A stretch of 64,000 bases of DNA from a virus. The position numbers and the translations under genes were made by a program. Location: positions 60,428 through 124,427 of the IMG/VR virus record IMGVR_UViG_3300023174_000075; one strand, written 5' to 3'. Under the pieces are notes generated by a model, which did no database searches, was not told the origin of the DNA, and was given only the letters and a program-made list of their open reading frames with translations. Position 1 is the first letter of the stretch. Every line of letters begins with the position of its first letter. Below are positions 14,073 to 40,476 of the stretch, piece after piece.

Positions 14073-14855
14073 TTAGATCTTTATATACCCATGCTTATAA
14101 TATTCATTATATAGTCTGGTACGTAATGTATCTAATTTTTTAGTTACTTTAGTAATGTGTGGAGTTGATGTATCAGTGATTTCGCGAATATAGATGTATA
14201 ATGCTTTCTTATTAAATATTTCTAGAGTTTCACGTTTACGAAATAATTCAAGAATAGCATCTGCTGTCTTAGCATCCTGGGATTTGGGAAATAATTGATG
14301 AATGTATTTATCAATGTAACGTACATATTGATCAATAAATGTATTTGGATCTTCTTGATCCTCAGCTTCCTTATTAGTTTCAGCCAAAAATCCTTTATCT
14401 TCATCTAATTCATCTATATCAGCACGCTCTTGTAGTTTCTTATAATTATTATTATTATAAACAATAAGATAGCGTTTAGCAATAGTACCAAAGTAACTAA
14501 ATGCTTTACCTTTATCCTGATTATATAAGTGGAGTTTCTCGAGTAGAAATGTTACAACTTCATGTTTAAGTTCCTCAATTGTATCTGAATCGGTATAATA
14601 AAACTTAAATGTATGAATAATATTTTCAGCCAATTTATAAAAGGCATACTCAATACGATCTCTATAAATTTTATCTCTAAAAGATTGATCATCAGAAGCT
14701 AAATAAGAAATAATTGCTTCCTCAGTATCAGTAGTAAAATATACGCGAGGTTCTTTAGGTTTGCGCTTACGAGGTTGTCCGCGTTTATTTAACGCAATTG
14801 TTTTTTCACTATCTAAAAATATATCTAGATCGTCGTTTTCGTAGTAAGTTGACAT
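14073..14855 (-). CDS. Late-transcription sigma factor, T4 gp55-like (260 aa)
   Basis: Looks like a divergent sigma-70 family protein. Residues ~60-131 form a region-2-like helical block ending in KGKAFSYFGTIAKRYLI (~115-131), the segment that in sigma factors contacts the -10 element and core polymerase; this variant is shared with gp55-type late sigma factors of T4-related phages. The C-terminal part (~195-255) holds a possible helix-turn-helix (TDTSTPHITKVTKKLDTLR). The basic N-terminus (RGQPRKRKPKEP) may bind DNA. gp55 directs host polymerase to late promoters that have only a -10-like box. Its place next to the structural genes and the many single-box promoters here fits that role. Confidence 0.75.
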   Translation of the reverse strand: MSTYYENDDLDIFLDSEKTIALNKRGQPRKRKPKEPRVYFTTDTEEAIISYLASDDQSFRDKIYRDRIEYAFYKLAENIIHTFKFYYTDSDTIEELKHEVVTFLLEKLHLYNQDKGKAFSYFGTIAKRYLIVYNNNNYKKLQERADIDELDEDKGFLAETNKEAEDQEDPNTFIDQYVRYIDKYIHQLFPKSQDAKTADAILELFRKRETLEIFNKKALYIYIREITDTSTPHITKVTKKLDTLRTRLYNEYYKHGYIKI

Positions 14856-24940: not shown

Positions 24941-25380
24941 TAATAAACTCGTTTCCAATTCAAATCAATACCTGTTTTTATTCTATGACAATTACAGCAT
25001 CGTATTTCACATTTTCTTATTTCTTCCTTTATTGCCTGGATAGATGCAGTATGACCACACATGATTTTTACTCCTCTCTTTTTCTTTCCACGTACATGAT
25101 CAAATTCTAATACCCTAATATCTTTATGTCCACAATCGGTACACTCCCCAAATCTCCTAAGGTATCGTTTTACGAATTCGAAATTTCTATCCTTGATTAA
25201 TTCATTATTAACCATGTTTCTCTTAATTACATGGTCCTTTTTTTCAGCGTATCTTACTTTAATTTTTTTAATAACGCATTCCTTACAATAATGTTGATAA
25301 CCTGTTTTGTTTGATGATTGTTTGTGAAATTGGGTTATGTCTAATTCTTTAGAGCAAGCACCACATACTTTTGTTTCCAT
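24940..25380 (-). CDS. HNH endonuclease with N-terminal zinc finger (146 aa)
   Basis: N-terminal zinc motif CGACSKELDITQFHKQSSNK ... CKEC (residues ~6-36) as in phage HNH enzymes of the 'recombination endonuclease VII-like' type. Core: CTDCGHKDIRVLEFDHVRGK (~91-110) gives the D-H of the first HNH element, and CNCHRIKTGIDLNWK near the C-terminus gives the last His. Intact, so probably an active, mobile endonuclease. Own class B promoter. Confidence 0.82.
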   Translation of the reverse strand: METKVCGACSKELDITQFHKQSSNKTGYQHYCKECVIKKIKVRYAEKKDHVIKRNMVNNELIKDRNFEFVKRYLRRFGECTDCGHKDIRVLEFDHVRGKKKRGVKIMCGHTASIQAIKEEIRKCEIRCCNCHRIKTGIDLNWKRVY

Positions 25381-25396
25381 ATTTTATCCATTTCCA

Positions 25397-36643: not shown

Positions 36644-37117
36644 TTATTTATTTAAATATCCATTAATTGTAATGCTTTGTTCTTTTTCAAAATAATGAAA
36701 TTCACTATGGCAATTACGACATAACGTGATACATTTTTCTAATTCTAATTTAAGTTTATCAACACTGTGTTTAGTAGCATCACCTAAATCAAATGATTTT
36801 TGAGATGGATCAATGTGATGGAAATCTAAAACATACGGTCTAGTTTCGCCACATTTACTACAACTACATTTGGATTTATATTCATTAATAAATTCTCTGC
36901 GTTGTTTATTTTTAATTTTTGATTGTTGATTCCATTTTTCTCTTAAAACATTAATATCGGTTTCTGTTTTTATTTTTTGATATTTCTGTTTATGATACTC
37001 TGCCTCATAAAGCTGTATTTTTTCATTATCCTGTCTATAATCTTGCATTCTAGCCTTATGCTTTTCCTTATTATCTCGGTAATATTTAGCATAATATTCC
37101 TTCGTTCCCGTTTTCAT
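36644..37117 (-). CDS. HNH homing endonuclease (157 aa)
   Basis: Start placed at MKTGTKEYYAKYYRDNKEKH; the longer frame would run into the tmRNA 3' exon. A basic tail-to-core arrangement (NKEKHKARMQDYRQDN) precedes an intact HNH core: CSCSKCGETRPYVLDFHHID (residues ~91-110) with D-F-H-H, and LCRNCHSEFHYFE. Its own class B promoter sits in the 55-base gap to the tmRNA. Homing endonucleases beside group I introns often mobilise them; here the endonuclease is next to the intron-split tmRNA but outside the intron. Confidence 0.85.
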   Translation of the reverse strand: MKTGTKEYYAKYYRDNKEKHKARMQDYRQDNEKIQLYEAEYHKQKYQKIKTETDINVLREKWNQQSKIKNKQRREFINEYKSKCSCSKCGETRPYVLDFHHIDPSQKSFDLGDATKHSVDKLKLELEKCITLCRNCHSEFHYFEKEQSITINGYLNK

Positions 37118-37133
37118 ATAATTATTGTTTCCA

Positions 37134-37141
37134 ATAAATAT
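37134..37141 (-). promoter_or_regulatory. Class B (late-type) promoter box
   Basis: CATATATTTATTGGAAAC on the coding strand, between the tmRNA 3' end and the HNH ATG. Confidence 0.45.
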
Positions 37142-37189
37142 ATGAAAATTTGGGGAGACGATAGGAACTTGTGGAGATGCCGGGAGTCG

Positions 37190-37380
37190 CATTTATGGAC
37201 TATCTCATCAGCCGTTCTGACTGGTGGGCGCTCTTGCCTGTTATTAAGTAGTCTTTACTACTCAGGTAGTCTCTACACCTTCTAAGAGTGTACTCTTAGC
37301 TTGGCTCGGTATTAGCTGCTGCTTTCACCGAATTCACCCACTTTATTACCTTACCATTCCTAGTAAGGAGGTCCAACTTG
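37190..37380 (-). other. Group I intron in tmRNA T-loop (191 nt, no ORF)
   Basis: 5' exon ends in U (37381) and the intron ends in G (37190), the group I rule. P1 is GGUUC/GGACC (37380-37384 with 37370-37374), with a U-G wobble at the splice site. The P4-P6 region AATTCGGTGAAAGCAGC...AATACCGAGCCAAGC (37295-37333) and the P7 strands GTAGAGACTACC (37265-37276) and GAGATAGTCC (37197-37206) match catalytic-core elements of group IA-type introns. It has no reading frame, so mobility would need another endonuclease, possibly the HNH at 36644-37117. Confidence 0.85.
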
Positions 37381-37606
37381 AACCCGGGTCTCCGAAAGTA
37401 ACAATAATACCAACGTCTCACACGCTTAGTACTAACTACTATCTGATTACTACCAATAAAGCGATAGCTCAAATTTCATTTGCACCGTAATTGTAGGGCC
37501 TTTCGGCCGCTCCACCATCTACTTTTGAGAAAAGCAGAAAAACGTTTTATTCATTGCAACTTACTGTTTCACCCAAGTTGCCAGGGAAAGAAAAGATCCG
37601 TAGATC

Positions 37607-37690
37607 CTAGGCAGCTAAAGCTACATTGGCGAAAGCCATGTTGATAATTCTAGCACCTTCTTCTTGACGAGCGATTTTGTTGTCGTTTAT
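37607..37690 (-). other. tmRNA tag reading frame
   Basis: Open frame ending NMAFANVALAA-stop. The nearest upstream in-frame stop is at about 37706, so the tag is at most about 32 codons; 26-27 if translation resumes near the AACGACAAC segment, which resembles the E. coli resume region. The exact resume codon cannot be set from sequence. Longer than the common 8-15 residue tags. Confidence 0.6.
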
Positions 37691-37784
37691 AGTTTTGTTC
37701 AAGTATTAAAGAGGATTAGAACCATGCCTCTGCGTGTGATATTACCCTTATCATCCGGATCAAATGCCAAGTCATCCCCATATT

Positions 37785-38192: not shown

Positions 38193-38316
38193 AGTACTGC
38201 TGATTTGTTGAGCGCACCGAATCTTCAAAACCAGCAAAATAACGGCACTCCCTTTCTTGTTTGTTTTTCAGACCACCCCACAAGTCCGGGTTAACATGAG
38301 CGATCTGTTGATCAAG
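38193..38316 (-). other. Spacer between tRNA genes
   Basis: 124 bases with no ORF over 20 codons and no cloverleaf I could fold. Moderately GC-rich like the RNA genes around it. May be a processed spacer of a tRNA-tmRNA precursor. Confidence 0.3.
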
Positions 38317-38402
38317 TAGTCAGGCAAGGACTTGAACCTTGAACGCCGTTTTTAACTCGGCCTCTCTTTATAGATAGCGTCTACCAATTCCGCCACCTGA
38401 CT
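38317..38402 (-). tRNA. tRNA-Leu-like, UAA anticodon probable, atypical core
   Basis: 86 nt, the normal length of a class II tRNA. Acceptor AGTCAGG/CCTGACT is perfect, T-arm CAAGG-TTCAAGT-CCTTG is perfect, and the D-arm GCGGAATTGGTAGACGC is Leu-like. The expected anticodon arm position (CTATC-TATAAA-GAGAG) pairs poorly, while a better stem-loop with a UAA triplet (GCCGA-GTTAAAA-ACGGC) sits where the long variable arm should be. Leu(UAA) is the best reading; the gene could be degenerate. Confidence 0.65.
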
Positions 38403-39173: not shown

Positions 39174-39199
39174 ATTAAATATATAACTTTTATTTTGCC
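39174..39199 (-). promoter_or_regulatory. Class A promoter
   Basis: GGCAAAAT and TATATTTAATC at the standard offset. The upstream box overlaps the QAK-stop end of the HNH gene. Confidence 0.55.
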
Positions 39200-39846
39200 T
39201 GGTCTACTTTTTTCTTTTTATTTTTATTTCCTATTTCTCCTTTATAACCAAACGATTCAGCTATTTCTGTTGTTTTAAATAATGGTTGTAAATTAGTATA
39301 ATGAAAACATTGTTTTTGTTGTTCTATATCTGTTAAGTTAAAATTACAACACCCTATAATATGATCTATTTCCCATATTTTACCATGGTTATTCCAGTTC
39401 ATTTCTGGTTTAAATTGAGATTCAAGGTATTGTTTTATTTGAGATATAGTTCCTCCTAATAAGGTAGATGTTTTTTCTTCTTTTTTTCCTTTTAACTCAT
39501 TAACTATCCTAGTTTGAAGAATATGTCTTATTTTAAAATTTAAGTCATTTTTTCTTTTATTATTCACCCATGCTCTATAATATCCTTTATTTTGTTTTCT
39601 ATATTCTTTAATCTTTTCTTTATTTTCAATATTATATTTTAATGAATTCTGTTGGTAATATTCTTGTTTATTTTCTTTATTATTTTTATAATAATTATGG
39701 TATTGTTCTGAGTTGTTAGAGTAATATTTTTTATTAAAGATTTTATAACACTCTTTACATTTATACCCATATCCAGAAGATGTTGTTTTATCTTTAGGGA
39801 AATAGGATAATTCTTTTTCTATTTTACATCTATTACATATTCTCAT
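39190..39846 (-). CDS. HNH endonuclease with N-terminal zinc finger (218 aa)
   Basis: CNRCKIEKELSYFPKD ... CKECY at the N-terminus (zinc finger), a long basic linker with repeated YY/NK units (residues ~40-100), then an intact HNH core near the C-terminus: KIWEIDHIIGCCNFNLTD (~155-172; D-H-I), CFHYTNLQPLFKTTE. The core type, with HYTNLQPLF, is common in free-standing phage HNH enzymes. Class B box five bases before the ATG; its 3' end overlaps a class A promoter. Confidence 0.85.
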   Translation of the reverse strand: MRICNRCKIEKELSYFPKDKTTSSGYGYKCKECYKIFNKKYYSNNSEQYHNYYKNNKENKQEYYQQNSLKYNIENKEKIKEYRKQNKGYYRAWVNNKRKNDLNFKIRHILQTRIVNELKGKKEEKTSTLLGGTISQIKQYLESQFKPEMNWNNHGKIWEIDHIIGCCNFNLTDIEQQKQCFHYTNLQPLFKTTEIAESFGYKGEIGNKNKKKKVDQAK

Positions 39847-39876: not shown

Positions 39877-40476
39877 TTACAAGAGTCCTAACATTTTCAT
39901 GTTTTCTAATTGATCATCATCAAGATCCCATGTATGTGGTTTTGCTTTAACTGTTTGATTATCTTCTATATTGCGAATTTGATCTGGGGAGAGAGGATCT
40001 CCTACATAAAGGAAATAACAGTTATAACATAATATTTCTAAATTATCAAGTAAATAATTGGATTTATTTCCGTCTTTAAAATTAAGTAAAGTAGGAGTTT
40101 TATAATCAGTTACTCTACGTTCATTACATCCACATGTATAACATTCATCTTTCAAATAACCCTCCGCTATTCCTCTAGCTTTTATTTTAGATGGAGTAAA
40201 TGATTCATAACCTGTACCCTCTTCAAATATACGCTTAACCATTGGTTCTTTACGTCTATTAGGGAGGAATTTGGGAATACCTTTGCCATTTTGATTTTTA
40301 TGGGCATCAAATAGTGTTAGTGAATTTGGATCACTTTCATCTACCTTCAACGCCTTCATAAATGGCTTAAGGTGTTGATACGAGCACCCTAAATATTTGG
40401 CCGCTGCTCTAATACTTTTGGTATAGCGCATTGCAGTCTCAATTTGTGACTTGGTCAAATGTTTGGGTGCTGGCAT
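39877..40476 (-). CDS. HTH plus degenerate HNH-fold protein (199 aa)
   Basis: N-terminal helix-turn-helix (AMRYTKSIRAAAKYLGCSYQ, residues ~15-34). Residues ~112-155 keep the HNH zinc frame (CYTCGC ... CYNCYF) and the fold sequence LLNFKDGNKSNYLLDNLEIL, but the metal-binding His residues of the HNH motif (normally H-H-x-D-G and C-x-x-C-H) are Asn/Phe and Tyr. So cleavage is unlikely and DNA binding probable. Could be a transcription regulator evolved from a homing enzyme. Confidence 0.7.
   Translation of the reverse strand: MPAPKHLTKSQIETAMRYTKSIRAAAKYLGCSYQHLKPFMKALKVDESDPNSLTLFDAHKNQNGKGIPKFLPNRRKEPMVKRIFEEGTGYESFTPSKIKARGIAEGYLKDECYTCGCNERRVTDYKTPTLLNFKDGNKSNYLLDNLEILCYNCYFLYVGDPLSPDQIRNIEDNQTVKAKPHTWDLDDDQLENMKMLGLL

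Follow-up and report, generated by a model that had tools for sequence, protein, structure and literature searches.

The tmRNA gene of a T4-like phage is interrupted in its T-loop by a group I intron and is followed, 54 nt downstream, by a gene for a free-standing HNH endonuclease. From the comparisons presented below, the intron and the downstream HNH gene probably move together by collaborative homing. The window analysed here is a stretch of 64,000 nucleotides that corresponds to positions 60428-124427 of a virus record 124,427 bases long. The phage is of the T4-like type, as its record contains a Gp23-type capsid gene (E 2e-65) and a terminase gene. The features of the locus are as follows.

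37779-37172, minus strand: tmRNA gene, split in the T-loop.
37381..37779, minus strand: tmRNA exon 1 (Rfam tmRNA model; ARAGORN on the spliced sequence), with the 5' acceptor strand, the pseudoknot region, the tag frame and the 5' half of the T-stem and loop, ending in ...CCGGGTT.
37607..37684, minus strand: tag reading frame, GAC...TAG, 25 codons plus stop, DNKIARQEEGARIINMAFANVALAA (ARAGORN).
37190..37380, minus strand: group I intron of 191 nt, ORF-less, with an IA-type layout including P7.1/P7.2 and no P9 hairpin.
37172..37189, minus strand: tmRNA exon 2, with the remainder of the T-loop (CGACT), the 3' T-stem (CCCGG) and the 3' acceptor strand (CATCTCC), ending in the discriminator A; CCA is not encoded.
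37107..37154, minus strand: hairpin whose 3' arm contains the HNH start codon (z-score -4.6).
36644..37117, minus strand: free-standing HNH endonuclease gene, 157 aa (PF01844; phrog_3106, E 5e-24).

The two exons are joined by an acceptor stem formed from GGGGATG (37779-37773) and CATCTCC (37179-37173), with a single G-U at pair 3. A G3-U acceptor pair is the alanine identity pair, and the mature tmRNA would thus be an alanine acceptor. The intron is inserted between the T-loop bases TT and CGACT, and the T-stem CCGGG/CCCGG and the loop TTCGACT are re-formed once 37380-37190 is taken out. ARAGORN calls a tmRNA in the spliced sequence, with a 25-aa tag ending in ALAA and the resume site TATAAACGACAACAAAAT, and calls none in the genomic, intron-containing sequence. 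A previous sequence-only reading of this DNA had described the acceptor pair, a tag frame ending in VALAA-stop, the split T-stem and the restoration of the T-loop by removal of the intron; all of these were recovered on the minus strand at the positions listed above. The locus can accordingly be read as a real phage tmRNA gene whose product would need to lose the 191-nt intron in order to function.

The covariance-model check proposed in the same reading was made with Rfam. In permissive mode Rfam matches both RNAs from end to end, the tmRNA (RF00023) at 30 bits and E 4.4e-10 for the interrupted gene and the group I intron (Intron_gpI, RF00028) at 48 bits and E 6.8e-11, both scores being below the curated cut-offs of 47 and 50, respectively. 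Since the scores lie under these cut-offs, default annotation overlooks both RNAs, and Rfam at its default cut-off reports neither of them at the locus. The low score of the tmRNA is plausibly due to its interruption by the intron, as a close relative without the intron (the record of L004) has a tmRNA that reaches 87 bits with the same model. Intron-bearing phage tmRNAs are thus overlooked by standard annotation (ARAGORN, default Rfam). No SmpB gene was found in the phage records, that of the window phage included, and the phage tmRNA would therefore need the SmpB of the host. The tmRNA tags at this locus are unusually long in many phages, about 23-27 aa (window 37607-37684; L004-L027), 10 aa being the commonest length overall (PMC11915505). 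They fall into two types without relationship to each other, DNKIARQEEG...ALAA and D(E/N)..STMTFEDxMxFVGADYALAA.

The ends of the intron display a U before the intron, a U-G at the 5' splice site and a terminal G. Pairing was found for P1 (GGGTT/GACCT), P2, P3 (GTGGGT/GCCCAC), P4, P5, P6, P6a, P7 (GACTA/TAGTC), P7.1, P7.2, P8 and P10, the latter pairing AGTTG with the 3' exon CGACT, to exactly which it is complementary. The splice-site bases, P1, P4-P6 and P7 had been proposed from the letters alone, and all of them are present. Two-sided compensatory changes occur in 24 of the 62 pairs among six distinct introns, with a mean of 11.3 after shuffling and none of 500 shuffles reaching 24; P2 shows such changes at all eight of its pairs. 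In the alignment with related introns from the tmRNA genes of other phages, pairing is seen in 84% of the cells, against 26-43% in slid versions. Fold and covariation taken together argue that the structure is not a chance one. P7.1/P7.2 are paired in only 42% of the alignment cells and are not shared, and are therefore supported by the window sequence alone. The intact core, the U-G, the terminal G and P10 lead us to infer self-splicing of the intron from the transcript. The intron contains no reading frame for an endonuclease.

In order to place the locus among its relatives, the neighbouring ClpP-like protease was used as a bait, and 28 related viral loci were retrieved. An uninterrupted tmRNA lies near the same place in 21 of them, 19 being found by ARAGORN and two (L006 and L007) being recognized directly in the sequence. 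The relative L004, whose ClpP is 96% identical, carries the identical 25-aa tag and an uninterrupted T-loop, with neither intron nor HNH gene. In L003, whose ClpP is also 96% identical, the whole tmRNA gene is absent with near-exact ends (about 14150-14400) by comparison with L004. These two cases indicate that the intron is optional and that the tmRNA gene itself is gained and lost. A second bait, a peptidase neighbour, gave 80 loci without any tmRNA detected by ARAGORN and was abandoned.

A search with the 3'-junction pattern retrieved one further viral record containing the same intron (L037/G001, 102 kb), in a tmRNA whose tag is nearly the same; a plasmid search with the intron gave no match. 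The two introns are identical at 191 of 191 positions. Elsewhere the two phages are distantly related and display only patchy, non-collinear matches of 68-84%. Perfect identity extends over 343 nt (37433-37091): it sets in 53 nt before the end of exon 1, runs through the intron, exon 2 and the spacer, and stops 27 nt into the HNH gene, the identity falling to 93.2% in the 5' part of the tmRNA and to 94.4% in the HNH gene on either side. Such a block fits the pattern expected of a recent transfer with co-conversion, and another recombination route would look alike. This intron and this HNH gene were found together in a single pair of phages.

The identity of the two copies bears on the state of the intron. 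The window intron is compact, with just 8 nt from P7 to the 3' splice site and hence no P9 hairpin, whereas the introns of related phage tmRNAs (217-228 nt) do have P9. This hairpin is usual in group I introns, yet is not known to belong to the minimal core, and its loss could weaken splicing. The missing P9 and the Rfam scores under the cut-offs would suit a decayed or slowly splicing intron, the tmRNA being a pseudogene or giving little product. However, every other helix is intact, including the P10 that matches the exact 3' exon, zero base differences separate the copies in two separate phages, and tag, acceptor stem and T-stem are all preserved, so that we regard decay as very improbable.

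The HNH gene had been overlooked in the first reading. Its protein retains the H-N-H and the CxxC zinc residues, and C88, C91, H102, H103, C135, N137, C138, H139 and H143 are invariant in alignment A1. With this gene starting so close behind the tmRNA, the odd intron probably belongs to a homing unit made up of intron and endonuclease. In all six cases a hairpin holds the start codon in its 3' arm or its loop, with z-scores of -3.8 to -7.6 in the four that were tested. Stem sequences vary among the phages (changed stems in L162-L165) and the pairing is kept, which makes translational control of the endonuclease gene probable. Timing of expression may thus matter at this locus, and this is the nearest that the data come to a regulatory reading, in which the intron would be a timing switch that holds back the active phage tmRNA until the RNA has folded or enough GTP is at hand. 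As L004 manages with the same tag and without the intron, this role is hardly credible.

While a single-sequence HNH query returned one relative only, a profile search of viral contigs with an alignment query recovered four further full-length homologues (L162-L165; 55-59% identity). All four lie directly behind the 3' end of a phage tmRNA and every one of these tmRNAs is intronless; those of L162 and L164 were identified by eye, the former being cut off at the end of the contig. Adjacency to a tmRNA is hence seen for all five full-length homologues, as compared with one of 75 distant HNH relatives that has a tmRNA within 500 nt. In the wider family (L161-L240), 38 of 80 genes have a tRNA gene no more than 500 nt away, a hint of homing in tRNA regions; with distant relatives so often near tRNA genes, the slot may simply tolerate insertions. 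The four genes that adjoin intronless tmRNAs indicate that the HNH gene can persist without the intron.

The association was then considered over a broader range of introns. Two junction patterns applied to viral contigs gave, besides the window, 26 contigs in which the same T-loop position holds an intron and the 3' context is tmRNA-like, the spliced tmRNA being confirmed by ARAGORN in 12 of them; two other contigs, L043 and L273, were chance pattern matches and were dropped. The records G005 and G006 carry T4-like capsid and terminase genes and two of the intron-bearing contigs are 344-348 kb long. The remaining ones are short and not all of them need be viral: L266, whose neighbouring gene looks bacterial (by eye, phenylacetate oxygenase-like), is possibly not. 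An endonuclease gene lies behind the intron-bearing tmRNA in 17 of the 27 contigs and for nine of the 17 distinct introns. By comparison, the same endonuclease families are absent within 800 nt behind all 21 intronless phage tmRNAs obtained with the ClpP bait (19 distinct; Fisher p 3e-4 on distinct introns, a treatment that removes relatedness only partly). For roughly half of the distinct introns in tmRNA genes no endonuclease is recognised nearby, some contigs ending too soon. Three families occupy the slot, namely HNH, endonuclease VII-like (phrog_3322/1035) and zinc-finger nuclease-like (L041, L268, L269), the last being the least certain because only L268 has a library match. The two families other than HNH sit 1-96 nt behind the tmRNA 3' end (L041, L046, L047, L260, L263, L268).

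These data also bear on the case where intron and HNH gene are independent neighbours. The HNH gene would spread alone into the 3' region of tmRNA genes (intronless homing) and the intron would be a separate passenger in a recombining tmRNA cassette. The HNH genes behind intronless tmRNAs in L162-L165 agree with such a scheme, and so does the exchange of whole tmRNA genes in this phage group, of which the absence in L003 and the two unrelated tag types at one locus are the signs. Nevertheless, introns and endonucleases co-occur far above expectation, with three endonuclease families involved, and the block of perfect identity has the intron at its centre and takes in the start of the HNH gene. 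An independent history therefore appears unlikely, even if it deserves serious consideration.

In order to look for bacterial counterparts, a covariance model of the phage introns was run against 395 genomes of the class Bacteroidia, and matches were obtained in 15 genomes. In one of these (L241), a 231-nt intron occupies the same tmRNA T-loop site, the tag being of bacterial type (GNNQFALAA); nearly all the other matches lie in tRNA genes. A scan of bacterial genomes with the 3'-junction pattern gave 26 matches, none of which could be spliced to a tmRNA. Introns at T-loop position 3 have been reported only from the class Bacteroidia (PMC11915505), and from the numbering used there the site TT^CGACT would be this position 3. 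Both the L241 intron and the published position-3 introns lend themselves to a direct origin, in which the phage took the intron from a Bacteroidia host tmRNA gene at the same site with no help from an endonuclease. The window intron is, however, only 66% identical to that of L241 and groups in the intron tree with the Flavobacterium phage intron L035 (support 95), itself not in a detected tmRNA, which renders this origin improbable in spite of weakly supported deep branches. The weakness of these branches also means that no single origin is claimed for tmRNA introns, and the tree does not resolve the donor and recipient between phages and bacteria.

The preferred scheme, collaborative homing, can be summarized as follows. 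The intron would splice itself out, restoring TTCGACT and a working tmRNA that uses the host SmpB. The HNH enzyme would cut phage tmRNA genes devoid of the intron, at the T-loop or close to it; when the break is repaired from a copy with both intron and HNH gene, the intron, the tmRNA flanks and the HNH gene would be transferred together. The intron would shield its own genome from the HNH cut; both the cleavage site and this protection are inferred. A broader proposal is offered more tentatively and may well prove wrong: phage tmRNA genes could be a recurrent homing niche, in which one and the same spot has been settled in T4-like phages, and possibly in jumbo phages, by ORF-less T-loop introns and by endonucleases of three or more unrelated families that move as pairs with them, such phages being the reservoir for the Bacteroidia tmRNA introns at this subsite.

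Introns in tmRNA genes, which the sequence-only reading had mentioned, are an established gene form, with 883 sequences, four T-loop subsites and 21 phyla (PMC11915505). As in these genes, a group I intron lies in the T-loop, with a U at -1 paired with G and a terminal G. The published examples are mostly bacterial and their endonuclease genes, which are rare (36/883), are located inside the intron (PMC11915505), whereas the present case is a phage one with a free-standing gene behind the tmRNA and an intron devoid of P9. The collaborative homing scheme was defined for psbA and F-CphI (PMC6083498, PMC3984707), and in S-PM2 the psbA intron is followed by F-CphI in the same gene order as in the window. 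An ORF-less group I intron and a free-standing endonuclease gene adjacent to the interrupted gene are common to the window, to psbA/F-CphI of S-PM2 (PMC6083498) and to T7-like phages and the ICP1 terminase (PMC10448857), and the window pair seems to share their co-inheritance as well. Unlike in these systems, the target would be a ribosome-rescue RNA gene instead of a protein gene, its cleavage is a prediction, and the endonuclease is an HNH with its own N-terminal region. In PMC2988022, the T4 homing endonuclease gene mobE is cited as having a hairpin over its ribosome site, and SegB acts in a tRNA region; both resemble the window gene as free-standing endonucleases beside a likely target, and the window hairpin is of the mobE type. 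SegB is of the GIY-YIG family, in contrast to the window HNH linked to a tmRNA.

Bacterial tmRNA T-loop introns including those at this site, phage tmRNAs, and collaborative homing with other phage genes as targets are thus already known. The suggestion that the combination is possibly undescribed has to be narrowed, since the intron-form tmRNA and apparently the same subsite are on record (PMC11915505), and it may still apply to introns in phage tmRNA genes: the text of that study reports 79 phage tmRNAs and names none with an intron. These introns and tmRNA-dedicated homing endonucleases are apparently new within the searchable literature, and so are the 26 additional contigs carrying introns at this site and the occupation of one slot by three endonuclease families. 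A free-standing endonuclease adjoining the gene, in phages, would supply both a mechanism and a vehicle for the movement of tmRNA introns, and the locus would offer a clean, testable homing system with a ribosome-rescue RNA as target.

A number of side observations were made in these records. A ClpA/ClpC-like AAA unfoldase (phrog_4871, E 1e-242 in L046) is encoded near the intron-bearing tmRNA in L042, L044 and L046-L049 and may act on tagged proteins as a partner supplied by the phage. In the crAss-like phages L031, L032 and L033, a T-arm-like sequence (GGACACGGGTTCGACT in L032) precedes a group I intron of the same model (about 1390-1660), that of L031 adjoining a RAGATH RNA; these introns were rejected as tmRNA introns since neither splicing nor Rfam gave a tmRNA. 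A GOLLD RNA (255 bits) is present in the related phage contig L030 (7017-7442). A tRNA-like gene at window 38316-38402 has a short anticodon loop, for which ARAGORN gives the anticodon 'aa', and the tRNA cluster of the relative L005 contains a normal tRNA-Leu(TAA). Other endonuclease-like genes of the window lie at 39190-39846, 39877-40476 and 24943-25383, two of the three being close to the tRNA cluster. The sequence ATATTTAT occurs in the window 21 times on the minus strand as against 6 times on the plus strand; an ATG follows 14-18 nt after 10 of the 21 minus-strand copies, and the element resembles a phage promoter.
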